From an uncultured Lachnospiraceae bacterium (lineage in GTDB: Bacteria; Bacillota; Clostridia; Lachnospirales; Lachnospiraceae): a DNA stretch of 54,997 bases. The DNA lies in contig CANQEL010000016.1 in the NCBI GenBank assembly GCA_947594855.1, forward strand, positions 1 to 54,997, read 5' to 3'. Of the stretch, positions 1 through 13,809 are shown one piece after another. Within the stretch, counting starts at the first letter, position 1. The number at the start of each line of letters is the position of its first letter. The translations under genes and the position numbers were made by a program. The notes under the pieces were generated by a model. That model worked only from the letters and a program-made list of their open reading frames with translations, made no database searches and was not told the origin of the DNA.

Positions 1-1
1 A

Positions 2-394
2 AAGCTGATTTTACTTACGCCTTTCACCTTTACTTATCATAGAAGATCTTATTTACAGACTTTTGTTCATAGTCTCGATACTGAAATTTCAGCTGCATCC
101 AAGACAATTACCAAAACCAAAACTACGTATTATAAAAATTCAGCCGGTACCACTCTTTGGTCTGTAGCAATCACAGCAACTTTCACTTACAACGGCAGTA
201 CGTCAAAATGTACATCCTGCTACCATAAAACTACATGTCCCGCATCTTCATGGATAATTAAATCATCTTCTTCCAGTAAAAGCGGAAACTCTGCTACTGC
301 TACAGCAACTGCTACACATTTTGTTGACAACTCATCTAAAGATTACTTTGCATCCGTTAAAATTACCTGTAGCAAAACTGGTGTGGTTTCATAA
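2..394 (+). CDS. C-terminal part of a secreted protein (partial at left edge)
   Basis: The reading frame is open from base 2 to a TAA at 392-394, so only the last 130 residues are inside the window. The residues are rich in Thr, Ser and Ala with no membrane segment. A block around residues 50-105 (TLWSVAITATFTYNG, then SSSSKSGNSATATATATHF, ending KITCSKTGVVS) alternates beta-type stretches with cysteines. That pattern resembles small exported Firmicute proteins of unknown function. No signal peptide can be checked because the start is outside. A hairpin lies about 40 nt after the stop. No function is assigned. Confidence 0.6.
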   Translation, partial: KLILLTPFTFTYHRRSYLQTFVHSLDTEISAASKTITKTKTTYYKNSAGTTLWSVAITATFTYNGSTSKCTSCYHKTTCPASSWIIKSSSSSKSGNSATATATATHFVDNSSKDYFASVKITCSKTGVVS

Positions 395-435
395 ATGCCA
401 TGTGTTTAATTAAAACAAAATTACACTAATCGAAC

Positions 436-466
436 AAGAAAGTTAGCCTTGTATGCTGACTTTCTT
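436..466 (+). terminator. Hairpin terminator after the partial secreted-protein gene
   Basis: A 12-bp stem (AAGAAAGTTAGC with GCTGACTTTCTT, one G-T pair) encloses a 7-nt loop and begins 42 nt after the stop codon. The tail is short (ATTTATAT), so termination may be modest. Confidence 0.6.
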
Positions 467-566
467 ATTTATATAACCATAATTTATTATATATTAACCA
501 TATCAGCGATTTTTATTGTTCTATATCATTTAAAATTGTTACTACTTTGATAAATATATAATAACC

Positions 567-809
567 CTATTTCCCCACGACTAATTTTTTAGAAGTGTAC
601 TCATCTATCATATTCTGTAATTCAGCGAAAATTTTATCAGCAGCCTACTGTATTTCCTTTTCCGTATGCGTATAATAAAATGACGGCGGAAACAAATCAA
701 AAGAACTTCCATCCATCAGATACCACAATAAATCCATTTGTCTTAATCTAATACGGAATCTAACTTTTTTTGTCAAAACACCTATTAAGCCAATAAATTG
801 TTTTAACAT
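567..809 (-). pseudogene. Small gene with an in-frame amber codon
   Basis: An ATG at 809 preceded by AAAGGATG opens a 54-codon frame beginning MLKQFIGLIGVL. It stops at TAG (645-647), then continues in the same frame for 25 more residues (AADKIFAELQNMIDEYTSKK) to a second TAG at 567-569. The second half reads as natural helical protein, so the simplest view is an 80-residue gene broken by one nonsense change. A free-standing 54-residue peptide is the alternative. The product is not recognised; an inverted repeat lies just upstream. Confidence 0.4.
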
Positions 810-820
810 CACTATATCAT

Positions 821-866
821 CCTTTCGTTATAAATTGGCTTGAACAACCTCATTATAACGGAAAGG
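821..866. repeat. Imperfect inverted repeat upstream of the broken small gene
   Basis: Arms CCTTTCGTTATAA (821-833) and TTATAACGGAAAGG (853-866) are reverse complements apart from one extra base, separated by 19 nt. The left arm contributes the ribosome-binding site of the small minus-strand gene. It could be an operator, a leader hairpin or the scar of a mobile end. Confidence 0.5.
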
Positions 867-889
867 TGATTTTTTGTGTATAACGACCG

Positions 890-958
890 TTGCGCACCCG
901 CATAGCAGGTGGTTTATATCTCGCACGCTTTGCGCACTCGACTGGGTCTATCCGACCC
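890..958. other. GC-richer structured stretch with two hairpins and a direct repeat
   Basis: Inside very A+T-rich DNA there are a hairpin CACCcGC-ATA-GCaGGTG (895-911), a second hairpin GGGTC-TATCC-GACCC (944-958), and an 11-bp direct repeat TTGCGCAC(C/T)CG at 890-900 and 930-940. No convincing protein is encoded on either strand. The mix of a short repeat and hairpins resembles transfer-origin or element-end DNA, but no relaxase gene is present to support that. Confidence 0.35.
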
Positions 959-967
959 ATAATCAAA

Positions 968-996
968 GGCTAGACAGCAGAATCTGCAGTCTAGCC
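968..996 (-). terminator. Strong near-perfect hairpin downstream of the three-gene operon
   Basis: GGCTAGACaGCAGA and TCTGCaGTCTAGCC form a 14-position stem with a single A-A mismatch around one central base. Read on the minus strand it is followed by TTTGATT. It lies 145 nt after the stop of the last gene of the 10068-1141 operon and could end that transcript. The stretch from 1004 to 1140 is A+T-rich and shows nothing else. Confidence 0.45.
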
Positions 997-1140
997 CTAG
1001 CAATTATCATAGAAAAGCTAAATTTACAAAAAACATTTAATGTATTATATAAACTCCTTATGATACACCCTCAAACAATATCTTACAACAAATAATTCTG
1101 TTTTTAGCAATAAATTGATATATGTATTATCTTAAAAATT

Positions 1141-2364
1141 CTAAATATGATTAATATTATTTGTATTATAAGGTATTCGAGATTCACATATTTCAACATT
1201 TCTGAGCCAATATTTATTCTTACAGTATATTTCTAATTTTTTTCTCTGCTCCCGACGATCATTAGTAGGAGCCACGGTTATCTTTGTAATAGGAAGGTGT
1301 CCCCTACATATTATACTAGGACCCTTGTAAAACATATTTTTTTCGTCTTTTTTTATTCTTTTCATTCTTTCTTTAATGGCCTTTTCAACTAAATTATATA
1401 TCTGTTCCTGATTATACCCTTGTGGTATTACTATAGGAGAAATCCCACTTTTAAATTTTATTGCATCAATTGCATCTATCTTTTCCTTTATCTCCTTCTC
1501 AAGCAAGGATTCATCAGTAGTTGTAACAAAATTGCATGGTCGATTATTTGCATCCATATCACCAAATTTTAACATTATGTAAGGTACTTTGGTACCATCT
1601 TTTTTTTCTAGAAAATTAATACACCTTACCAAACGGTTATTCTTATTTAAATAAACCAATCGAGCTTCTCTTTCCTGACAAAATCCACCATGCTTAAAAT
1701 AAGGTAGTATATCCTCCCTGTTTAATCCTTTAATTTGATTACAAACGTAATTTATTTGTGTTAGAAAGTCATCTCTTAGTCGTCTTTCACCTCCAATTAT
1801 ACTATATACACTATCATTATAGTATCCTACTTGTATAGGATATGCAGAATATTTGATAAATTCAAAATCACCTTTAGGATTACCGTATATTAAACTATAA
1901 TCAAATAATTCCGAATTATCCTTAACTATAGTTTTTACCTTATCATTATATTCACTATCACCAAAATTTTTACTTAAATTAATTATATCTTGTCCAAAAT
2001 AAAATTCAAATGAGACACCTCCTTCTCTGCAATAACTCATCCACTGGCTATATATATCATTTCCATCAAACTTCCCCTGATTAACTTTACTGCTTTGATA
2101 AAAACAAGAAATATAAGTATCAACTGCTTGGTCCACAGAGAAAAATGTATTTTCCGAAAAATCATTTGATAATTCTGAACAAAATAAATATAGAGAATCA
2201 CTCTCTAGAATATTATAAACGGTCGATATTGGAGTATACTTTACATAAACAGAGTTCCCATCTATTGAATAAAGGTCAGAAAAATCTTCTGGGTATATTT
2301 TGCTTAAATTATACCTAAACTCTAAAACTTTAGACAATTCATCCAATCCAATTTCAGAAATCAT
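1141..2364 (-). CDS. DUF2971-like protein, third gene of the putative defence operon
   Basis: 407 residues, no signal peptide or membrane segment. The N-terminal third matches the DUF2971 pattern: VKYTPISTVYNILESDSLYL, then a SNDFSENTFF segment, then ISCFYQSS, then QWMSYCREGGVSFEF (compare the family's W-x-x-Y-x(4-6)-G-V-x-x-x-F). The C-terminal part (about 230-407) is basic and charged and not recognised. DUF2971 has no settled biochemical activity; in this setting it is the best candidate for the effector, which is inference. The start lies 1 nt after the stop of the receiver-like gene, so the three genes should be co-translated. Base composition is far more A+T-rich than the core genes to the right. 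Confidence 0.65.
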   Translation of the reverse strand: MISEIGLDELSKVLEFRYNLSKIYPEDFSDLYSIDGNSVYVKYTPISTVYNILESDSLYLFCSELSNDFSENTFFSVDQAVDTYISCFYQSSKVNQGKFDGNDIYSQWMSYCREGGVSFEFYFGQDIINLSKNFGDSEYNDKVKTIVKDNSELFDYSLIYGNPKGDFEFIKYSAYPIQVGYYNDSVYSIIGGERRLRDDFLTQINYVCNQIKGLNREDILPYFKHGGFCQEREARLVYLNKNNRLVRCINFLEKKDGTKVPYIMLKFGDMDANNRPCNFVTTTDESLLEKEIKEKIDAIDAIKFKSGISPIVIPQGYNQEQIYNLVEKAIKERMKRIKKDEKNMFYKGPSIICRGHLPITKITVAPTNDRREQRKKLEIYCKNKYWLRNVEICESRIPYNTNNINHI

Positions 2365-2365
2365 A

Positions 2366-3247
2366 TTAAACCTCCTCTTTTTCTAAACATTGAGATATTT
2401 TTACATAAAGGTAGTCTCCTTCATTATCAAACGAATTTTCACCATCTCTTTTATATATTATAATATCTTCAGATGAATCATATATTTTTTTATAGGTATT
2501 TTTCCATGCACGTATACCTTTATCTGGTATACAAAAACTGGAATAAAGAAATACACCACAAAACTGTTTGTTTTTTAATTGATTATATAATCCCATAGAA
2601 AGTATAGGAGCCATATATGGTTGAGTTTCACTTCCTTCTTTGCCCTGTGTTGTATTTACTACAAATTCCTTGCTTTCAAAACACATTTTGTAATAGTCAT
2701 CTTTAAGGAGACATAAATCGAGTGCAACGGCAATATTTTCTTCATTATCATCAATTAAAGATTTTAATAAATACTCTGTTCCTTCAGTAAGTTTTTCAAC
2801 CGATTCCTTATATAATTTCACAAAATTACTATCATCATCTTCATTGTTATCAAATCGCAGTTTTCTCCAATCTTCTATGCATTCTGTATTATCAAGAAAA
2901 ACATCTGATTTACTTAAAGCCACGTCACATTCTGAATTTTCTTTAATATCATTATATGATGACATATATACTTTTTTTAAATTATCTTGTATTTTTTGCT
3001 CATCATCAATTATATTTTTATCTATTATAAAAGAAACAAATCTGTCAAATATTGCAAAATTCAGATCACTAATAGCTAATTTTTCATTATCCTTATATTT
3101 ATCTAAAGTATCTATATCTCTGACAGCGTCACCAAATATATAAATTTGAGATATAACATCATTTTCCCACAATGGTATAAAATTATTAGAAACTATCTCT
3201 TTCATAGCGTTTGTATCATCATCAATCCATATAACTTTTTTATACAT
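2366..3247 (-). CDS. Receiver (REC)-like protein with a long internal insertion
   Basis: 293 residues. The hallmarks of a response-regulator receiver appear in order: acidic cluster after strand 1 (VIWIDDD, Asp9-Asp11), a candidate phospho-acceptor after a hydrophobic strand (VALDLCLL, Asp177), a Ser after strand 4 (GVFLYSS, Ser236/237) and a Lys after strand 5 (IIIYKRD, Lys267). The gap between strand 1 and the acceptor is about 165 residues instead of about 45, so roughly 100 residues are inserted, largely helical and acidic. There is no DNA-binding output domain. It starts 2 nt after the giant gene. Likely role: partner that takes a phosphate or signal from the GHKL domain of that protein (inference). 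Confidence 0.6.
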   Translation of the reverse strand: MYKKVIWIDDDTNAMKEIVSNNFIPLWENDVISQIYIFGDAVRDIDTLDKYKDNEKLAISDLNFAIFDRFVSFIIDKNIIDDEQKIQDNLKKVYMSSYNDIKENSECDVALSKSDVFLDNTECIEDWRKLRFDNNEDDDSNFVKLYKESVEKLTEGTEYLLKSLIDDNEENIAVALDLCLLKDDYYKMCFESKEFVVNTTQGKEGSETQPYMAPILSMGLYNQLKNKQFCGVFLYSSFCIPDKGIRAWKNTYKKIYDSSEDIIIYKRDGENSFDNEGDYLYVKISQCLEKEEV

Positions 3248-3249
3248 TA

Positions 3250-6200
3250 TTATTTACTCTCCTTTTTTATAATTGGTAGTCTTGTTATAAAATAGTCATT
3301 TTCAAATCTAAACATATTATTATTTAAAATTTCCTCATCATCTTTATCTAAGAACTTTGCAAAGTACTCTTTTTCAGTTAATAAAGACATATGACCATCC
3401 TTAAAATCTAATGGATCCTTTAGTTTTGCGATTATTTCTTCAGTTGTAATATTAGTAACTGTATGCAATTTGTTCTTTATAACAAACCAATCAAATCTTG
3501 TTCCCTCTGAATTTTCAATATCAAATATAATTTCACATGAATGTTTACCAATATACGGTCTTAAAAGAAACTCAACAATTTCTTGTTCATATTTTAATTT
3601 ACGTAAGCTTTTTTTCTTAAATTCATAATGGCACTCAATTCTTTTCAAAAAATTGTTAATACCTGCACCTGCACCTACACTAAATCTCAAAGCATCAAAG
3701 CATATACGATAAATTATATTCTTAGTATAATCCAAATTATACGTATATTCCATCCCCATTTTATCCTTTTTAGTAATTATTGATGATTTATATAAGTTGT
3801 CCTTATTTAATATATTAAAATATATTATATCTTTAAAGAGCATATATATATAATCACTTTCATTATCATTAGGCAAGATATCCATTATGCTATTTACAGG
3901 AAAACTATTTCCATCACTTGAGTTTTGCGGAACATATAGCTTCATTACATCACGGTTTTCTATCATCTTGCTGTCATCAATTATTTCGTCAAATGTTTTG
4001 TTTATATTTCTGAACACTCGATTATACAATCTTGCCACCATTGTATTGCAGTAATCGCGAGCAAGTACCCATTTTAACATAGTTTCATTATTTGGTCTTC
4101 CACAATTATTATTTTTATCAAAATTGCCATTATTTCCTAAAATCTTTAAAATTTCCTTATCTTCTCTCATAGGAGTATGGCTTATAACTTTTTCATGTTC
4201 TAATATAGCCTCCGTATCAATAGTATGTGCATATTTTTGCATAACATCACTAGTAAAGTCCTCTGCTAAATGCTTCATTATTTTATTCCTATAAGATAGA
4301 ATATCACGCATTATTAGCCATGGAAGCATCTTACGTTTTTTTTCATTTTTTATTACCATACTCACATATAAATATACTGGTACAATTTTTTTTGTTTCTG
4401 TGTTCGCTCTAAGTTCTATATCAGAATTATCAAAACATAGTATAAAATAAGGTATACGATGAGATGTTTGAATCGAATTTCTATCTGTATTCATTATATT
4501 ATTCCAATCTAAAATACTTTGATGCATTTTATATGTTTTTTCACATATACCTAAAGCATTCTTTATAAAATATCCCGTATCTTTAAACAAATTATTATTC
4601 AATGCAATCATTATTCTTTCTTTGATTATGTACTTTGCTTTTGTCAAGTCTGAATTTTTATCCAAAGATATGGTATGTGTAATTATATCAAGATCCCTGT
4701 GAAATATCTTTGATTGATCATTCATATCTGATCTTGTTAATAAAGCCAATCTTATACCATCTTTATCTAATCCATATTTCTTAATAACCATTTTCTTTAT
4801 GTTACTAAGCAATGTTTCATAACGATCTTTTATTAAATCCCTTCCTTGCTTTTTATGTGCGAGAACGCCTTTGTTTTTGTATGACTCATTGTTATATAGG
4901 TTTATGGTTTCAAAACTTTTATATAAAATTTTTTCCTCCTCAATTACATCTTCTTTCAAACTTTTTTCATAATACTCTTCATTATTGAAATCATCTTCGT
5001 TTTCACAGAAGCATAATCTATCTATATTTTTGAAAGAATCTAATCTTTCTTTAAAATATTTATTTTCTCCCACATAAAAATTTTCTTCGTTTCTACTTTT
5101 ACTACATAACTGCTTCAAAGCATCCATTACCAAATGATTATTAGATAAAAATACTTCATTACAGAATGTTTTAAAGGCATGACAATCTTTTACATCTTTG
5201 CCTTCTTTAATACTGGCAGCAGATTTTATACGATTATAAAAGAAATCATCACACTCCAAATATTTTATCATCTTAACCTGTTCTGTATTTTCTTCTCCTG
5301 TAACAAGTAAATGTTCTAACCAAAGTGAGCGTATTTCATCAGAACTTCTATCAATAACTTTTTGGACAAAAACTGAATAAGTCAACCAAAATTCCTTGGA
5401 ATATTTTTCATATTCACTTGGTTTACCGAATTTATCGGCTAATCTGTTAAAATAACAAAATGTTTTAGTTATTGTACTTTTTCGTATCAGGTATGTACTA
5501 TTCATATCCACAGTTGCTTCATACAAACAATCTTTAAGAAAATTTAACTCTTTAATGGGATCTGCATATAATTTTTTAATATTATTAAGTACATATAAAT
5601 ATTTTGAATCAAGAGTTTTAATACTACTATCTGATTCGCTATCAATTATACTTTCTGACAATAAAATTATAAATTTAAGTATAACTGTTTTTATATTATG
5701 ATTATATATAATAAAGGGTCTTGTGATTACTTTTATCAAATTTGATATTATAATGCCTTTATCTTCACTTTTATCTATAAGGCCATCAGATAATATGCGT
5801 ATATATTTATAATTATTATTTTCAATTTTACTTTCTGTAAAATAATTAAACAGTTCAAAAATCATATCACTGTATACTTCTTCCTCTTGTTTCATATTCT
5901 GCTCAAAAAGATTTTTTACTATATGAGATAATACAAGACGATAATAATAATCATCTTTGCATTCCTCTTCAACAAGAATTTCTTCAAATGATTTCGGCAT
6001 ATAATTTATAATCTTATTATTCCAATAGTTTACAGCTTGGCGAGTTGCACTTCTCTCCATAAGATACTTCGAGTCTGCAAGAATCTTACAACCAATACAG
6101 GAATCTCCCTGCACACGTATATTAGATACATCTATATGACAAAACGAATAGAAATAATCTGTAGGAATAACATACGAAGCTTTTGAGCTATCTGAAATCC

Positions 6201-9200
6201 TATCTATTAAGAAAAAACATTTTTCAAAAACAGCTGTTGTATAAAGTTCAAGATATTCTTTTGGTATAAGTGATTGTAACAAATTACTTGCTTTATGTAC
6301 TGTTGTTCCTGTAATCACAGTATCGTCTGCAAAATAAAATCTCACAGGTCTAAAAGAACTGTTTGTTATATGATATAACGAATAAAAATCCTTAAACAAT
6401 TTATAAATGGTGTTTTTAAGAGCTGAATGCTCACAGATAAAGTTAGATCTAAACTCCTTATCTTCATTAACCGATATAATTTCTGCTGTGCCATTAAAAT
6501 AAAATGCATTTACAAACTGAGAAAATCCCACATTTGTATTATGCTCTGGAGAAAAAATTACGTTAATATATGGAAGAAAACTATTATCAGACAAATTATT
6601 ATCCTTTTCAGATAATTTTTTCAACCATTTCTTAATTTCCTCACTTGCTTTCGCAAAATAGTATTGAGTATTAATATAATATTGATAGTGATTTTTCCCA
6701 CGCTTTATATGCCCATAATATACAACCCCTTTAAGAAGTGAAATTCGTTTATTATTTTCTACAATATCTTCTTTACATTCATATATTGGGGAAACCAACT
6801 TTTTATTAAATATTTGCTGTGCTGGAACTGTCGATGTTGGATCTGTTTCTATAAGCGGAATCTCGTCCGTAACACACTTAGGATAGCAAAGAGGACACTT
6901 TTCAGGCCAGTTCCAATAGGTATTACCTATAATAATATAATATATTTTATTACTTTTGCCAAGCTCGTCAAAATATGTTTCTATATAGCCTTTATTAAAA
7001 GACTTATAGTATTTATCTTCTATATTAGTTACAGGTAAACCATTATATTTTTCAATAATATTATTTTCTACTGTTTTTTTACATATATCATCTCTTACAA
7101 GCATTACAGTATGATTATGAACCAATTTATGTATATTTTTTATACTGTTGAATTCATTTTCAAACTTAACCCACATTTTACTGAAAGTTGTTAAAGTAGA
7201 ACTTATAGGAACAATCTGTACAACTTTAATATCCCTTAGTTTTCTAAAATCTTCATATCCTTTATAGTAAATCTGTATATTATTTGCATTTGCTTCAGAT
7301 TGTAAATTATATTGATAAACAGCATAAGTAACTTTTGCTACAGAATCATTTGCCTTCCTATAATAATCTAATATCATAGTTATGGACATAAGTATAGCCT
7401 GAGAATATGAGGCATATCCATAAAATAATATATTATCATTTTTCAAATCTATACCACTATTTTTTATATTTCTAAGTATTTCAAATGCCACACTATTTGC
7501 TATAGTAGTACGATAAAACAAAAATGACATCTCATAAAATTTATTCATATGAACCTTGTTTCCTACTCTTATGTGAGTATTTTCAAATTTATAACCTTTC
7601 ATTTCAGTAATAGATTTTTCAGCTATTTTTGATATCTTTTCAAAATACATATTAGGATAAATATTATTATTAGACTGCAAAAACAAGGCAAACGGTACTA
7701 ATAGGAACTTATTTTGACTATTAATAACATATTTTGAAAACGGCATAAATAGATTATTAATCATTTCATAAATATCACTTCCATAACATTGTGTACCATG
7801 TTCTATAGATAATATATATGAATTTTTTACTGCTAAACCATAACTATTACCAAACATATGTATCTGTTTAAAGTACTCTTCTCCTATTTCTTTTGTTTCA
7901 TTACTACATGCAACAAAAAGCTGTAAATTTTCTGGAAATTTTTTGAGAGACAAAGATACAGTCACATCTTCAAAACAATTTATAAAAGTGTCAGGCACAT
8001 TTATAATTGCAAGATTAATATTGCATGAATAATTCATGTTTGAAAAATATCCTATAGCACTAATAAATCCTTTTATTATTATCTCATATTCTTGATTAGT
8101 GCAATGTTCTTTAATAAATAACATCTTATTAAAATCAATTTTATAAATTTTATCAGAACATTTGTTTGATATGTAACACGTAAATATTTTAAACCAAAAA
8201 TTAGTCCATACAAGCTGACGAACAAATTTAACTGATATATTATTACCTAATTTCATCAAAACAGAATTTACAATTTCATTAAACCTTTGTTCATCATATT
8301 TATATAATATAGGAACAATGCTGCTGTCAATAAATGCTGCATATGTTTCATAATTATCATAATAATTTTTATTAAAATTAAGCTGAGCCATATTAAAATC
8401 ACTTTTCGGATTAAATACCTTAAGAGGCAAAGAAATATTAAATTCCGTTCCAGGGATATTGGGACTATTATCTTTTTTATCAAGTATAGTACTATCTATA
8501 TTATAATTGCAATAAAAATTATTTTTTTCAAAATCAAAAGTACTATTGCTATTTACACTGAATTGGGCATCGTTTTTTTTCATTATATGTGAAAAAAGAG
8601 CAAGACCTATATGAGCCGATGAATCAGTCTGTCTGAAATTATACCATGTCTGAATCAAATCATTGTTATCAATATCAAAAGAATTAAAAAAATTCCTCAA
8701 TTCTATTCCAATTAATGCCAATTCAGAATTTGCTTTACATATTTCTTTCTTATAATTATCAAAATTTATATTAAACAACTCAAGTTTGGTTACTGCATTT
8801 AATATTTTATTTTCAATATCTAATGTTTCATAAAAGGAATCAAGTATTGTCTTTGTGCTGTAATCAGAAATAATAATTTTTAAAATTTTTTCTGATTCAA
8901 CAGAATCATCCTGTCTAAGAAATGTTACAGAACACTCTTTTGCAGAAGAATATTGTAGTGCATTTTGCACTATCTGACTCACGGCATTGCATATTTCATC
9001 TGCAGTTTTTGCAGTTTTTTTAATTAACTGCAAAATCTCCAATTTATTATTCTCAAAATCAATAATAAACGAAAAAACAATAAACGAAAATATACTTTTT
9101 TCTGCAAAGCAATCAAGAAAAACATCACAATATTTTTTCCATTCTTCTTTAATATGCTCAAGTTTATCTTTCAGACAAATAAAAGCTGACTCAAATAGGA

Positions 9201-10068
9201 AATCAACCAATGCCAAATTCGAATTAGTATTATTAGCATAACCAAATCTTCTATTATTTTTTAATTCCTTATATTGTTCAATATATATCCCGGCATTACC
9301 ATTATCAAACAATAAATCGTAATGATTTAATTTTTCACTGTCTTCATTACTTATATTATTTGAATTTGCCGTCTTAGGAGTATTAACATATATATCTTGA
9401 ATTGTATAGTCAGTATTAATATTATTATGCAAAGTAATAATAGGAAAGCAATCGTTATTTTTTGGTATAGATTTAAAATCCAATGCTTTTACAATATTAC
9501 AATCATTATCTGTTGCAGCCTTTTCAACACCATATATGATGCCACGATTATCATGTTGTATTAAAACTCTTAAACGTGAAGATGCCTCTTTATATAAATC
9601 CGTATCTGTTTTAACATTATTATATACGTTTGTAGCAAAAGGATATTCATGGCCTGATCTAGGTACTAAAAAAATACTAAATCTTTTTTCCTTAATTAGA
9701 CTCTTACTATATGTAATTAATAATGAAAGATAGTGTAAATTTGTCAAATATTCATTCATATTACTATTATTATAATTTATTCTTATATGAAAATGTATAT
9801 CAGTTAAAATATCAACATTATATTTCCATATATTTTCTGGAATAATTTTAACAGATGAATTCATATTTTTCCCATCTATAGGTTCTTCCAATTTTACGGG
9901 AACTATTTTATTATTCTTATATTCTTTTATGGAAACTCTTAATTCAGAATATTTTATTACTTTAAAATAATCATAATTGGTTGAGTAATTATTTATCAGA
10001 AATATACATTTTGCATAGTCATAATAAATATTATCTATATCAATAAATAATACATTTTTTCTTGCCAT
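3250..10068 (-). CDS. Giant GHKL-ATPase / phosphoribosyltransferase-like protein of a putative defence system
   Basis: 2272 residues, soluble, no membrane segments. Visible parts: an N-terminal receiver-like start (NVLFIDID; VDILTDIHF with Asp90); a GHKL-type ATPase at about 345-550 with N-box VQNALQYSS (Asn369), IISDYS in place of DxG, G2-like HIGLAL (Gly488) and terminal PGTEFNISLPL (Pro539); a VPISSTLTTFSKMW segment at 953; a CPLCYPKC cysteine motif (1058, 1061, 1065); a phosphoribosyltransferase-type signature FADDTVITGTT at 1246-1256; a second CxxC at 1324/1327; then about 900 mostly helical residues. The C-terminus (YRICFDALRFS onward) may be a second, degenerate kinase-like fold. ATG follows AGGAGAACACG. 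Probably senses a threat and signals to the next two genes (inference). No named family is claimed. Confidence 0.7.
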   Translation of the reverse strand: MARKNVLFIDIDNIYYDYAKCIFLINNYSTNYDYFKVIKYSELRVSIKEYKNNKIVPVKLEEPIDGKNMNSSVKIIPENIWKYNVDILTDIHFHIRINYNNSNMNEYLTNLHYLSLLITYSKSLIKEKRFSIFLVPRSGHEYPFATNVYNNVKTDTDLYKEASSRLRVLIQHDNRGIIYGVEKAATDNDCNIVKALDFKSIPKNNDCFPIITLHNNINTDYTIQDIYVNTPKTANSNNISNEDSEKLNHYDLLFDNGNAGIYIEQYKELKNNRRFGYANNTNSNLALVDFLFESAFICLKDKLEHIKEEWKKYCDVFLDCFAEKSIFSFIVFSFIIDFENNKLEILQLIKKTAKTADEICNAVSQIVQNALQYSSAKECSVTFLRQDDSVESEKILKIIISDYSTKTILDSFYETLDIENKILNAVTKLELFNINFDNYKKEICKANSELALIGIELRNFFNSFDIDNNDLIQTWYNFRQTDSSAHIGLALFSHIMKKNDAQFSVNSNSTFDFEKNNFYCNYNIDSTILDKKDNSPNIPGTEFNISLPLKVFNPKSDFNMAQLNFNKNYYDNYETYAAFIDSSIVPILYKYDEQRFNEIVNSVLMKLGNNISVKFVRQLVWTNFWFKIFTCYISNKCSDKIYKIDFNKMLFIKEHCTNQEYEIIIKGFISAIGYFSNMNYSCNINLAIINVPDTFINCFEDVTVSLSLKKFPENLQLFVACSNETKEIGEEYFKQIHMFGNSYGLAVKNSYILSIEHGTQCYGSDIYEMINNLFMPFSKYVINSQNKFLLVPFALFLQSNNNIYPNMYFEKISKIAEKSITEMKGYKFENTHIRVGNKVHMNKFYEMSFLFYRTTIANSVAFEILRNIKNSGIDLKNDNILFYGYASYSQAILMSITMILDYYRKANDSVAKVTYAVYQYNLQSEANANNIQIYYKGYEDFRKLRDIKVVQIVPISSTLTTFSKMWVKFENEFNSIKNIHKLVHNHTVMLVRDDICKKTVENNIIEKYNGLPVTNIEDKYYKSFNKGYIETYFDELGKSNKIYYIIIGNTYWNWPEKCPLCYPKCVTDEIPLIETDPTSTVPAQQIFNKKLVSPIYECKEDIVENNKRISLLKGVVYYGHIKRGKNHYQYYINTQYYFAKASEEIKKWLKKLSEKDNNLSDNSFLPYINVIFSPEHNTNVGFSQFVNAFYFNGTAEIISVNEDKEFRSNFICEHSALKNTIYKLFKDFYSLYHITNSSFRPVRFYFADDTVITGTTVHKASNLLQSLIPKEYLELYTTAVFEKCFFLIDRISDSSKASYVIPTDYFYSFCHIDVSNIRVQGDSCIGCKILADSKYLMERSATRQAVNYWNNKIINYMPKSFEEILVEEECKDDYYYRLVLSHIVKNLFEQNMKQEEEVYSDMIFELFNYFTESKIENNNYKYIRILSDGLIDKSEDKGIIISNLIKVITRPFIIYNHNIKTVILKFIILLSESIIDSESDSSIKTLDSKYLYVLNNIKKLYADPIKELNFLKDCLYEATVDMNSTYLIRKSTITKTFCYFNRLADKFGKPSEYEKYSKEFWLTYSVFVQKVIDRSSDEIRSLWLEHLLVTGEENTEQVKMIKYLECDDFFYNRIKSAASIKEGKDVKDCHAFKTFCNEVFLSNNHLVMDALKQLCSKSRNEENFYVGENKYFKERLDSFKNIDRLCFCENEDDFNNEEYYEKSLKEDVIEEEKILYKSFETINLYNNESYKNKGVLAHKKQGRDLIKDRYETLLSNIKKMVIKKYGLDKDGIRLALLTRSDMNDQSKIFHRDLDIITHTISLDKNSDLTKAKYIIKERIMIALNNNLFKDTGYFIKNALGICEKTYKMHQSILDWNNIMNTDRNSIQTSHRIPYFILCFDNSDIELRANTETKKIVPVYLYVSMVIKNEKKRKMLPWLIMRDILSYRNKIMKHLAEDFTSDVMQKYAHTIDTEAILEHEKVISHTPMREDKEILKILGNNGNFDKNNNCGRPNNETMLKWVLARDYCNTMVARLYNRVFRNINKTFDEIIDDSKMIENRDVMKLYVPQNSSDGNSFPVNSIMDILPNDNESDYIYMLFKDIIYFNILNKDNLYKSSIITKKDKMGMEYTYNLDYTKNIIYRICFDALRFSVGAGAGINNFLKRIECHYEFKKKSLRKLKYEQEIVEFLLRPYIGKHSCEIIFDIENSEGTRFDWFVIKNKLHTVTNITTEEIIAKLKDPLDFKDGHMSLLTEKEYFAKFLDKDDEEILNNNMFRFENDYFITRLPIIKKESK

Positions 10069-10124
10069 CGTGTTCTCCTAATTAATAAATATTTTAATCG
10101 TATAGTAATTTACAAATTATCATT

Positions 10125-10153
10125 ATAATATCATATATTATATATAATTTCAA
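10125..10153 (-). promoter_or_regulatory. Promoter of the three-gene operon
   Basis: On the minus strand TTGAAA (10153-10148) and TATTAT (10130-10125) are separated by 17 nt, about 60 nt before the ATG at 10068. The stretch 10069-10202 has no other recognisable content. Confidence 0.5.
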
Positions 10154-10202
10154 TATATTTTAATCAAAAATATAATTTAATTATGTAGGATTATAATGCA
10201 TA

Positions 10203-11227
10203 TGTTACAACTGAACAATTAAAAAGCAGAGATACTGCCTTTGTGTTATAGTTTAATCACCACAAAAAACAAAACGTAAAGGAGTTCTCTGCCATGAATA
10301 CTATAACACAAGATATGAAGTATCGTTTATCATTAATAAAATATGCTGAAAAGTATGGTGTTACCAAAGATGCTATCAAATACAAAACTAACAGGCAGTA
10401 CATTTACCGTTGGAAACACGGCTATGATGGCACTTTGGAATCTCTGCGCAATAAATCCCACAGACCCCATTATCATCCACAGCATACACCTGAAGAAATC
10501 AAACTCATTTCAGATATACACAGGCACAATTGCAATGCCGATCTTGTCATCTTCTGGGTAAAGCTTAAACAGCGGAGGTATTCACGCTCAATCTCCGGAC
10601 TTTACCGCTTTCTTAAAAAACGTGGGCTTATGGCAGTCAAACCGCCAAATCCCAAATATGTCCCGAAGCCTTATCGCAGATGGATCATCACGTCTAGCGC
10701 ATCCAGATTGATGTTAAATTCGTTCCCTCCGTCTGTTTAGTGGGCAATGCCAAAGGCAGCGTTTCTATCAGTATACCACAATTGATGAGTATTTCCGCTG
10801 GCGCTTTGTGGAAGCATTTTGGGAACACAGTTCCTACTCCTCCATGATATTTCTGTAACATATGGTCAAGGCATTTCCATCCCCGGTCGAATGTGCGCAG
10901 ACAGATAACGGGCAGGAATTCACAAAGCGTTTCAGTTCCAATGGCGGCAGTGACAAACCAACTATTTTTCAGATACGGTTACAGCAGTTGAGAATACGTC
11001 ATAAGCTGATTAGGCCATTTACGCCGCGCCACAAATGGAAAAGTTGAGAAAAGCCATAGAAAGGACAATGAACGGTCCTATGCCATTCATACCTTCTATT
11101 CCTTTGACGATTTCAGCAAACAGTTAAAAATATATAATCGCAGGGATTATAATAACCCTCCAATGTGTCCTCTTGGCTAGGAAACACCCAGGCAGGTACT
11201 AATGGATTATTCAGGGTCAGTGTAACA
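10203..11227 (+). mobile_element. Decayed IS481-type insertion sequence
   Basis: The remains of an integrase-type transposase are bracketed by short imperfect inverted ends, TGTTACAACTGA at 10203-10214 and TCAGTGTAACA at 11217-11227. AATGC occurs close outside both ends (10195-10199 and 11228-11232), but three extra bases sit between it and the left end, so a target duplication is only suggested. The copy cannot transpose by itself. Confidence 0.55.
10294..11225 (+). pseudogene. IS481-family transposase, broken by frameshifts and stops
   Basis: The first 128 codons are intact: two helix-turn-helix stretches (YGVTKDAIKYKTNRQYIYRW; EEIKLISDIHRHN). The DDE core then has to be read across frames: a segment QIDVKFVPSV after an in-frame TAG, TTIDEYFRWRFVEAFWEHSS in the next frame, a TAA, then AQTDNGQEFTKR, and after another shift NGKVEKSHRKDNERSY, interrupted once more by TAG before the terminal TAA at 11223-11225. 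First and second catalytic Asp and the final Glu can all be placed. Start ATG follows AAAGGAGTTCTCTGCC. It is a neutral relic beside the restriction-modification genes. Confidence 0.8.
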
Positions 11228-11432
11228 AATGCTTGACAAACCCACATTCCGCTGAATCCAATTTAATTTTTTCATCGTCTCCCGAAAATCATCAAAAAAT
11301 ACACAGAAATGGTCGTTAAGATTGATTCCCTTATATTTAAGCTCTGCGCATAATGATACTCTTCTTATATGAATTGCACTTTTCATCTTTATCCATAAGA
11401 TAATCATATTTTACGCCCGAATAATATGACAT
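11207..11432 (-). pseudogene. Possible gene remnant next to the insertion sequence
   Basis: On the minus strand an ATG at 11432 opens MSYYSGVKYDYLMDKDEK...MRRA and hits TAA. Another frame overlapping it continues with natural-looking sequence (AELKYKGINLNDHFCVFFDD, then KKLNWIQRNVGL) and runs into the end of the insertion sequence. This could be one gene with a frameshift, cut by the IS. No family is recognised. The rest of 11226-11581 carries only the C-box region. Confidence 0.25.
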
Positions 11433-11515
11433 ATACCTAAACTGCTTTGCAATTAACTAAAAAGAACATACATAAAGGCTTTCTCGTATACACAGGAAAA
11501 AATTTTTTACTACTT

Positions 11516-11561
11516 ATGTGACTTATAGTCCGTTGACTTATAAACAACAAAAAAGTAATGT
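11516..11561 (+). promoter_or_regulatory. C-box operator overlapping the controller-gene promoter
   Basis: ATGTGACTTATAGTCCGT (11516-11533) followed by TGACTTATAAACAACA is very close to the paired operator known for C proteins of the Esp1396I/AhdI type (half-site GACTTATAGTC). The second half-site supplies the -35 TTGACT (11533-11538), with a possible -10 TAATGT 17 nt on (11556-11561). A C dimer on the left half could activate, and on the right half repress, as in those systems. Confidence 0.65.
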
Positions 11562-11581
11562 GTAAATAAGGAGGACTCCAA

Positions 11582-11779
11582 ATGATTACACATGAAATTG
11601 GAAATAAAATTAGATACTTTAGAAAACAAAAAGGACTATCGCAAGAAAAATTAGCGCTCTTAGCTGGTTTGGACAGAACATATTTAGCAGGGGTTGAATC
11701 GGGCAAAAGAAATGTCACTATAATTAGTCTGGAAAAAATAGCAAATGCTTTAGAGACGCCATTAAAAGAATTATTTTAA
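11582..11779 (+). CDS. Controller (C) protein, XRE-type helix-turn-helix regulator
   Basis: 65 residues, the usual size of a restriction-modification controller. A single HTH fills it: GLSQEKLALLAGLDRTYLAGVESGKRN at residues 18-44, followed by SLEKIANALETPLKELF. C proteins bind their own promoter as dimers and delay expression of the nuclease until methylation is established. RBS is AAGGAGGACTCCAA before the ATG. C-boxes upstream of this gene and again upstream of the nuclease gene fit that role. Only 49 nt separate it from the nuclease gene. Confidence 0.85.
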   Translation: MITHEIGNKIRYFRKQKGLSQEKLALLAGLDRTYLAGVESGKRNVTIISLEKIANALETPLKELF

Positions 11780-11785
11780 CAAATG

Positions 11786-11814
11786 TTGACTATAAGTAAC
11801 AAATAATGTACAAT
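11786..11814 (+). promoter_or_regulatory. Promoter with an embedded C-box half-site before the nuclease gene
   Basis: TTGACT (11786-11791), 17-nt spacer and TACAAT (11809-11814). GACTATAAGT at 11788-11797 is the exact complement of the half-site ACTTATAGTC found upstream of the C gene. The start point would be near 11821, giving a very short leader before the ATG at 11829. Confidence 0.55.
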
Positions 11815-11828
11815 TAGGAGGAAACAAT

Positions 11829-12686
11829 ATGCCAATTAAAATAGGAAGATATCCGATTGAAGTTTTTGGACATGTATATACAGATATGGGAGAGGAAGCT
11901 GTATATGATAGAAATTGTCAACATTGCCCTTATTTAGGAAGAGAATGTACAAAACCAAGAAAAAGTGAGCCGCATATAAAAGTCGGAATATGTACATTAG
12001 GATATAGGGGTTCTTTTTTAGACCATTATGAGCCAGTGATAATCTGTCCCTATAGATTTCTGGATGAAGTAGTTTACCAATCAATACATGATAGATTTTT
12101 TCCTGATTGGGAAAATACAAGATGGGTTAAAGAAGTTAATATGGGTGTAAGCGGTAATGTTGATTATGTTGCTGTAAAAACTGATGAAAAAGGAACCACT
12201 GTTGATGATTTCTTTTGTATTGAGTTTCAAGCTAATGGAACAACAGGTTCTCCATATCCATATGTAAAAGATTTATTGCGTGTTGGACATTATGAAGGAA
12301 ATTATACATACGGAATGAATTGGGCAAATGAATTTATGAAAACTATGATGCAGCAAGTATATAAAAAGGGACAGGTTGTATCACAATGGAATCGGAAAAT
12401 AGTTTTTGTAATTCAGGATGTTGCTCTGCAGTATCTTGAAAGTGCTGTAGATACGTCAGACCTTAGAGCTGATATGAATGATGTTGTACATTTTATGACA
12501 TATTCTTTAAGATGGAATGAAAAAGATAACAAGTTTGATATGTATCATGACAGATGGGTAAGTACTGATTTGGAAGGCGTCAATAGAATTCTGGCAGGTG
12601 CTAATTCATCCGATTATTTAACTGAAGAAAAGTTCCTTAGAAATACAATAAGAAAAGGAAAAGAGGATGGTGTATTAAGTGATTAA
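11829..12686 (+). CDS. NotI-family type II restriction endonuclease
   Basis: 285 residues. The start aligns with the NotI family by eye: IEVFGHVY, then CPYL (Cys33), ECTK (Cys40), GICTL (Cys55) and IICPYRFLDE (Cys73). These match the order of the four cysteines that bind iron in NotI (TCPFL, SCVKAE, GVCVV, LVCPNRALD). The nuclease core follows as NVDYVAV (Asp112) and FCIEFQANG (Glu132, Gln134), the E-x-Q variant of PD-(D/E)xK that NotI also has. It cuts unmethylated DNA at an unknown site. The gene follows the controller gene and its stop overlaps the methyltransferase start by 8 nt. RBS TTAGGAGGAAACAAT. Confidence 0.8.
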   Translation: MPIKIGRYPIEVFGHVYTDMGEEAVYDRNCQHCPYLGRECTKPRKSEPHIKVGICTLGYRGSFLDHYEPVIICPYRFLDEVVYQSIHDRFFPDWENTRWVKEVNMGVSGNVDYVAVKTDEKGTTVDDFFCIEFQANGTTGSPYPYVKDLLRVGHYEGNYTYGMNWANEFMKTMMQQVYKKGQVVSQWNRKIVFVIQDVALQYLESAVDTSDLRADMNDVVHFMTYSLRWNEKDNKFDMYHDRWVSTDLEGVNRILAGANSSDYLTEEKFLRNTIRKGKEDGVLSD

Positions 12687-13728
12687 AAACGTATTAGACG
12701 GAAAAGATGAATACTGTTTTGAAATAGGTGATAATGTTGAAGTGCTTAAAACATTACCAGATAATTCAATTGATTGCATAATAACGTCTCCGCCATATTG
12801 GAAACAGAGAATTTACGAAGATTATGACGGAGAATTAGAGAATATTATTGGTTCAGAGGACACTCCTGAACAATATGTTGAAAATTTGATGAAAGTTATA
12901 AGAGAGTTAAAAAGAGTATTAAAGGATGAAGGGACTTTCTGGTTAAATATCGGTGATAAATTTATTAATAAATGTCTTATGGGAATGCCCTGGCGAGTAG
13001 CATTACAAATGCAACAAGAAGGTTGGATTCTTAGAAGTGATATTATTTGGGACCAAATGAAAGGCACTCAAAGTTGCAGGGATAGAATGAGAGATATATA
13101 TGAACATGTATTTCAGTTTGTGAAAAAGCCAAAATACTATTTTGATGCTGACGCAATAAGGATTATTCCTGAAAAAGATGCATACGAGAAGGATGGACAT
13201 ATAATTTCAGCTACGGGAGTATCAGGAAAGAAGTACTTTAAACAAATAGAAATATCCAAAGTTTTGTCTGAGGAAGAAAAGGCAAACGCACTAAACGCAT
13301 TAAATGAAACATTAGAAGAAATGTCCAAAGGTGAAGTGGTGGATTTTCGCATGACTATTCGAGGTGAACAGAGAACATATCATGGCGAAAGCCAAAAATT
13401 AAGTGGGCGGGCAAAAGAATTAAATGAAAAAGGTTATTTTATTATCAAAATGAGAAAAAAAGGGTTTCTTCCGTCTGATATATGGAGAATTGTACCAGAA
13501 GATACATGGAGAAAAGATGCACATTGCGCTGTTTTTCCTGAGGAATTGCTGAAAAATCCAATTTTATCTACATGCCCTATTGGAGGAATTGTACTTGACC
13601 CATTTTCAGGTACAGGAAGTACAATTCATGCAGCTGTTTCCCTAAAACGAAAAGGAATTGGAATTGATTTAAGCACTCAATATACCGAAATTGCTAAGAA
13701 AAGATTGAATCCGAACCAAAGAACATAA
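12679..13728 (+). CDS. Beta-class DNA methyltransferase (probably N4-cytosine) of the R-M system
   Basis: 349 residues, GTG start inside the end of the nuclease gene (GTGATTAAA overlapping AGTGATTAA). Catalytic motif IV ITSPPYW sits near the N-terminus (Ser37-Tyr40) and the AdoMet-binding motif I LDPFSGTGST near the C-terminus (307-315): the beta-class order IV - target recognition - I. SPPY is typical of N4-cytosine enzymes, but N6-adenine cannot be excluded. It protects host DNA from the neighbouring nuclease. The last six residues (NPNQRT) and the stop lie in DNA that is a copy of the 3' end of the ATPase gene at 17116, read antisense, so the original C-terminus may have been different. 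Confidence 0.85.
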   Translation: MIKNVLDGKDEYCFEIGDNVEVLKTLPDNSIDCIITSPPYWKQRIYEDYDGELENIIGSEDTPEQYVENLMKVIRELKRVLKDEGTFWLNIGDKFINKCLMGMPWRVALQMQQEGWILRSDIIWDQMKGTQSCRDRMRDIYEHVFQFVKKPKYYFDADAIRIIPEKDAYEKDGHIISATGVSGKKYFKQIEISKVLSEEEKANALNALNETLEEMSKGEVVDFRMTIRGEQRTYHGESQKLSGRAKELNEKGYFIIKMRKKGFLPSDIWRIVPEDTWRKDAHCAVFPEELLKNPILSTCPIGGIVLDPFSGTGSTIHAAVSLKRKGIGIDLSTQYTEIAKKRLNPNQRT

Positions 13729-13765
13729 TATAGTAAATCAGATTATAAATTATTTTTCTCTTTTG
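13705..13765. repeat. 61-bp direct repeat, copy 1 (relic of an ATPase gene 3' end)
   Basis: 57 of 61 positions match 17139-17199 in the same orientation. Read on the minus strand it encodes RKIIYNLIYYIMFFGSDS, nearly the C-terminus of the AAA/DUF4143 ATPase (KIIYIPIYYIMFFGSDS). Weaker similarity continues to about 13780 after a 16-nt deletion. The stretch 13729-13809 holds no other feature. Confidence 0.85.
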
Positions 13766-13809
13766 TTATAAACAATAAACCAGCCGCGATTATACAAGGT
13801 AAACTGATA

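Follow-up and report, generated by a model that had tools for sequence, protein, structure and literature searches.

Several described systems share parts with the locus analysed here. Detocs is a three-gene family with a PNP effector, as set out in passages of PMC11249213. Phosphoribosyltransferases (PRTases) act as effectors in type III retrons (excerpts of PMC12548924) and, for those of Ter systems, a role in producing nucleotide signals has been proposed (excerpts of PMC7824862), while a divergent Rec domain, cRec, is tied to NAD/ADP-ribose (ADPr) enzymes in portions of PMC7824862 and PMC9503650. The stretch examined, referred to as the window, is the entire 54,997 nt of contig CANQEL010000016.1 (C16) from assembly GCA_947594855.1, an uncultured Lachnospiraceae bacterium whose genome (2.48 Mb) is 97.6% complete. 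Near its left end lies an operon for a giant protein, a receiver-like protein and a DUF2971-family protein. These three genes form a conserved, horizontally moving unit, which is undescribed as far as a search of the open-licence literature reaches: no paper there was recognised as describing the set, and DUF2971 was met in a genome reannotation.

Conservation of the three-gene unit

All three genes are on the minus strand. Gene 1 (3250..10068) encodes the giant protein of 2272 aa, with sensor, ATPase and PRTase parts, gene 2 (2366..3247) a stand-alone receiver-like protein of 293 aa and gene 3 (1141..2364) the DUF2971-family protein of 407 aa. The gaps are 2 nt (genes 1/2) and 1 nt (genes 2/3), so that the coordinates and lengths in a preliminary description, made from the letters of the window, were exact.

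With the giant or its core as query, matches were obtained in 6/299 genomes of the bacterial family, 4/392 of the order and 2/398 of the phylum (counts include the own genome); one order match (G527), which covers 33 positions and contains a stop, was dropped. When about 85,000 species genomes were scanned with a pattern, 25 loci emerged, six of them already known from the genome searches. The resulting set has 28 loci, including the window, L014 and L025, and omits L019, a 3.5-kb partial second copy. The preliminary description had proposed a survey of co-occurrence, and in this set a receiver-like gene follows the giant in 26/27 loci (L037 stops at the giant) and a DUF2971 gene belongs to the unit in 25/26 (L036 and L037 end too early), being split in two pieces in L038. 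Because 25/26 loci keep the unit, chance adjacency of the genes is rejected. Spacings, counted from the first possible start codon, range from -68 to +37 nt; L027, where the giant is in fragments, is the exception. Pairwise distance matrices of the three proteins are correlated (r = 0.87 for the 19 loci found in all three alignments), and 0/2000 permutations reached as high a value.

The giant varies in build. In L025 it is two genes, one GHKL and one PRTase, and several other loci look alike by position. In L014 (1129-8031 and 8054-8958) the giant is divergent and ends in a metallophosphatase domain (3.9e-11), while neither a receiver nor a DUF2971 gene is present; the metallophosphatase is a possible effector swap.

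A consensus match at 10125..10153 (minus strand), 57 nt upstream of the gene 1 start, gives a promoter-like TTGAAA-17-TATTAT whose -10 is preceded by TG. The single promoter claimed for the operon is no more than plausible, as window 1-12000 holds 110 such sites, with 89.9 +/- 9.9 expected.

Domains of the giant protein and its partners

Motif counts for the giant refer to alignment rows of its relatives, 20 to 23 by column. An N-terminal GHKL (HATPase-type) module (residues 345-560; 8389..9036, minus strand, as are all features of the giant) resembles 25 HATPase_c domains of the own genome (hhalign, 95.5%, E 1.6e-8). Of the 21 rows that have a residue at the N-box Asn column, 20 have Asn, the odd one out being L033, which starts at a contig edge; the G1 Asp is present in 20/20, and the HxG of the G2 box, with its Gly, is conserved. 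The GHKL domain first read from the letters is therefore borne out. The giant has no clear transmembrane stretch (maximum 19-mer Kyte-Doolittle value 1.63).

A histidine phosphorelay of Detocs type fared differently. Within residues 1-372 no column (of those with ≥ 15 rows) has 70% His, and in 20 rows the His residues upstream of the N-box share no distance from it, 5/20 having none at all in the 110 residues upstream. With no conserved His before the GHKL module, a histidine phosphorelay is unsupported, and a classical two-component system in its simple form was rejected for the same reason.

PRTase domain 1, of orotate-PRTase type (residues about 794-1055; 6904..7689), was recognised by structure comparison. 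Fold matches of the giant fall chiefly in model residues 450-711, and PurR is among the best for this domain; the profile test against PRTases of the own genome was negative (0.25%). Its phosphoribosyl pyrophosphate (PRPP) loop, IVPISSTLTT, is degenerate, with Pro then Ile/Val in 23/23 rows where the acidic pair would be. Because that pair is absent, the domain is probably ligand-binding rather than catalytic. PRTase-like region 2 (residues about 1104-1354; 6007..6759) carries the canonical loop FADDTVITGTT (residues 1246-1256; 6301..6333), in which the first Asp and the Gly are each kept in 23/23 rows and the second Asp in 21/23; the PRTase-type motif of the preliminary description is thus confirmed. 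The PRTase nature of the region as a whole is weakly shown, from this loop and an hhalign match (30%, E 5.4e-4) of just 29 columns around it. Two CxxC pairs, C1058/C1061 (6886..6897) and C1324/C1327, with each Cys in 23/23 rows, form a possible metal site.

At the C-terminus (residues about 2120-2268; 3265..3711) the motif pattern suggests, by eye, a degenerate GHKL-like domain, an assignment that is weak since hhalign gives only 6%. This domain, the second PRTase-fold domain and the identity of the window with the whole contig had all been missed before. Profile tests of the two GHKL-like pieces against each other (0.75%) and of the two PRTase regions against each other (0.37%) failed. The giant-core profile had one match among PDB sequences, ribosomal (E 0.55), and Pfam matches of the giants at E 0.03-1.8 were taken as chance, save the metallophosphatase of L014. 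None of the three window proteins matched a Pfam or NCBIfam model at cut-off, and in PADLOC v2.0.0 (E ≤ 10; Detocs models in that release unchecked) gene 3 matched PbeD at 0.085 and nothing else was found.

Gene 2 is similar to 29 Response_reg domains of the own genome (hhalign, 58.8%, E 9.4e-5). Its profile had three PDB matches, all response regulators and all weak (E 0.42-0.98), and the single sequence had three at chance level. Two Asp columns, corresponding to the acidic pocket and phospho-Asp, are invariant in the family (26/26), as is, by eye, a Ser/Thr after the next hydrophobic strand (26/26), which agrees with the earlier description of a stand-alone receiver-like protein. The beta-5 Lys aligns inconsistently by eye.

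This inconsistent Lys, like the lack of a DHp histidine in the giant, would suit a nucleotide-signal system, in which a nucleotide signal would be produced or degraded by the second PRTase, with the receiver-like protein serving not as a phospho-receiver but as a cRec-type enzyme or ligand binder. The canonical loop of region 2 points the same way, as do the signal-making role proposed for Ter PRTases and the link of cRec to NAD/ADPr enzymes in the excerpts cited above. However, those portions of PMC7824862 and PMC9503650 describe cRec as absent from histidine-kinase systems, whereas the partner giant here has a GHKL module, and the profile test used classical Response_reg domains only, so that it does not separate cRec from a classical receiver. 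We regard this alternative as unlikely.

Gene 3 scores 13.4 bits against Pfam DUF2971 (PF11185), below the gathering cut-off of 22; of four relatives scanned, two pass (24.5 and 25.8) and two fail (19.1 and 16.8). A weak fold match to DarT (7yk3, titled as DarT of DarTG) together with profile similarity weakly indicates a DarT-like ADP-ribosyltransferase fold, and E231 and E233 are invariant in 24/24 rows. Foldseek alone gave nothing at E ≤ 0.001 against PDB and viral models, and the profile had zero matches among PDB sequences. The DUF2971 protein is likely to be the effector of the set.

Horizontal spread and genomic surroundings

In a tree of 23 giant rows, from which split giants (L025, L047, L049 and L050 among them) were left out, two Spirochaetota rows, one record labelled Cloacimonadota and one labelled Bacteroides fall within the window's otherwise Bacillota clade. 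The labels of these metagenome-assembled genomes may be wrong, although the flanks of L034 look spirochaetal by eye. The unit moves horizontally. Its carriage by plasmids or phages was rejected: tblastn of the giant against 72,556 plasmid and 50,697 phage records gave no match, and a peptide-pattern scan of viral contigs gave 3 matching stretches, none a relative.

The operon lies in A+T-rich DNA, as had been noted, with 24-30% G+C against 35-41% at 14 to 30 kb, and the contig ends 1.1 kb beyond it on the left. The contig of a congener (G1030) has 86.7% similarity that ends at window 13773; the operon and the genes up to that point are therefore absent from that site, no search for them having been made in the remainder of that genome. 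Those genes include a degraded insertion-sequence transposase (10294-11180; a 148-aa open reading frame, then interrupted), read by eye and lying between operon and restriction genes, and, at 11583-13728, a 65-aa helix-turn-helix controller-like open reading frame (by eye) followed by genes for a protein like type II restriction enzymes (2.1e-10 in PADLOC) and for a methyltransferase (9.2e-71). The restriction-modification neighbours claimed earlier were thus recovered by PADLOC, the insertion-sequence relic being a reading by eye. In the own genome (L126, 3625-7114; window 1-13773), congener synteny breaks after metF (named by eye) on contig C13 and before a permease gene on C16. These breakpoints are likely to mark a variable site, of which C13 may be the other side, the joining of the window's left end to it being no more than suggestive.

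A variable site would fit a toxin-antitoxin-like module, with a DUF2971 toxin held inactive by giant and receiver and serving mainly in island maintenance. DarT is the toxin of DarTG, by the title of 7yk3, and DUF2971-type proteins, matched in 45/299 family genomes, occur in 40/299 where the giant was not found. Yet it would be extraordinary for an antitoxin to be an ATPase-PRTase protein of 2272 aa, and the giant is without relatives in the plasmid and phage records, which makes this explanation improbable.

Defence genes neighbour several loci: type II restriction-modification (window), BREX (L025, by position), AbiE (L027), PDC-S27 (L036) and a SoFic-like protein (L044), with two PDC-S01 matches among flanks to which no locus is attached. 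In L037 a HEC-02A/B candidate defence pair (6145-7703) is directly upstream of the giant. In L025 (14229-19901 and 1-5001) BREX-type genes, placed by position from a tally, start on the opposite strand at a distance of 349 nt from the split giant, the other side of which has an NTPase-like gene and one that is SIR2-like by eye.

These neighbourhood observations were made without matched control loci, and part of them weighs against a purely defensive role. By eye, 10/15 loci of the set L014 and L037-L050 (L049 having almost no flank) have glycosyltransferase, sugar-nucleotide or chain-length genes around them, and when 134 proteins from the flanks of this set were tallied by Pfam family, sugar-nucleotide families came first. 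The giant might instead sense PRPP or nucleotide status, with receiver and DUF2971 protein adjusting some process of the cell, for instance the synthesis of surface polysaccharides, and the match of PRTase domain 1 to the regulator PurR would agree. However, all 13 loci in the other set (window, L025-L036) lack such surroundings by eye (the Pfam scan covered the first set only), and a housekeeping regulator would not usually be so patchily present or spread horizontally. Since polysaccharide clusters are variable genome regions, they may be mere landing sites; either a hotspot for insertion or a link in function may lie behind the pattern. Non-defence signalling of this kind has, in our judgement, a low probability.

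A putative conflict system and its closest counterparts

Defence is the best reading of the three-gene set, as yet unproven. We give an even chance to a horizontally transferred conflict system, probably anti-phage and of abortive type, with a PRTase-pair sensor, GHKL switch, receiver relay and DUF2971 enzyme effector. The conserved operon, GHKL similarity, PRTase domain 1 fold, receiver similarity and horizontal spread on which it draws were computed; infection as trigger, the direction of signalling, the enzyme activities and the defence outcome are what we infer. The giant would be sensor and switch, sensing through its N-terminus and the PRTase pair, of which the degenerate PurR-like ligand binder and the domain with the canonical loop would together read or alter the phosphoribosyl/nucleotide pool. 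The GHKL module could convert nucleotide state into a conformational or phosphoryl signal, to be relayed or gated by the stand-alone receiver, which might then release the DarT-like enzyme to modify a cell target and stop growth. Of the earlier interpretation, the conserved unit, its GHKL, PRTase and receiver similarities and the likely DUF2971 effector are retained.

More tentatively, and with doubt outweighing confidence, the operon may represent a new immune class, in which one giant protein joins a PRTase tandem that senses PRPP or nucleotides (one pseudo-enzyme, one active) to a GHKL ATPase and licenses a DarT-like ADP-ribosyltransferase via a stand-alone receiver, the large DUF2971 family being a hitherto unrecognised set of ADP-ribosyltransferase effectors. 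If so, bacterial immunity would gain a sensor type, a GHKL ATPase bearing two PRTase domains, and nucleotide state would be connected with a toxin gated by a receiver; the DUF2971 family would gain a testable fold and activity. The gene set may overlap an unvalidated prediction of DefensePredictor, in which HATPase, REC and PRTase are named in figure legends only (PMC13092281, in part).

Among known systems, Detocs likewise consists of three genes, which code for a protein of ATPase/kinase type, a receiver and an effector. It differs, by description, in its PNP third gene, where DUF2971 stands here, and the giant has PRTase domains and no shared His before its ATPase. Type III retron effectors and Ter-system PRTases are likened, again by description, as PRTases serving in conflict systems, and neither a reverse transcriptase nor a Ter gene (TerB/TerC/TerD, HAD) is among the three genes. 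The likeness of the DUF2971 protein to DarT is weak but specific, whereas none of the three genes resembles an antitoxin of the kind of DarG, a macrodomain. PRTase domain 1 shares its fold with Bacillus subtilis PurR and orotate PRTases, from which it differs in a loop lacking the acidic pair and in being set within a 2272-aa GHKL protein.
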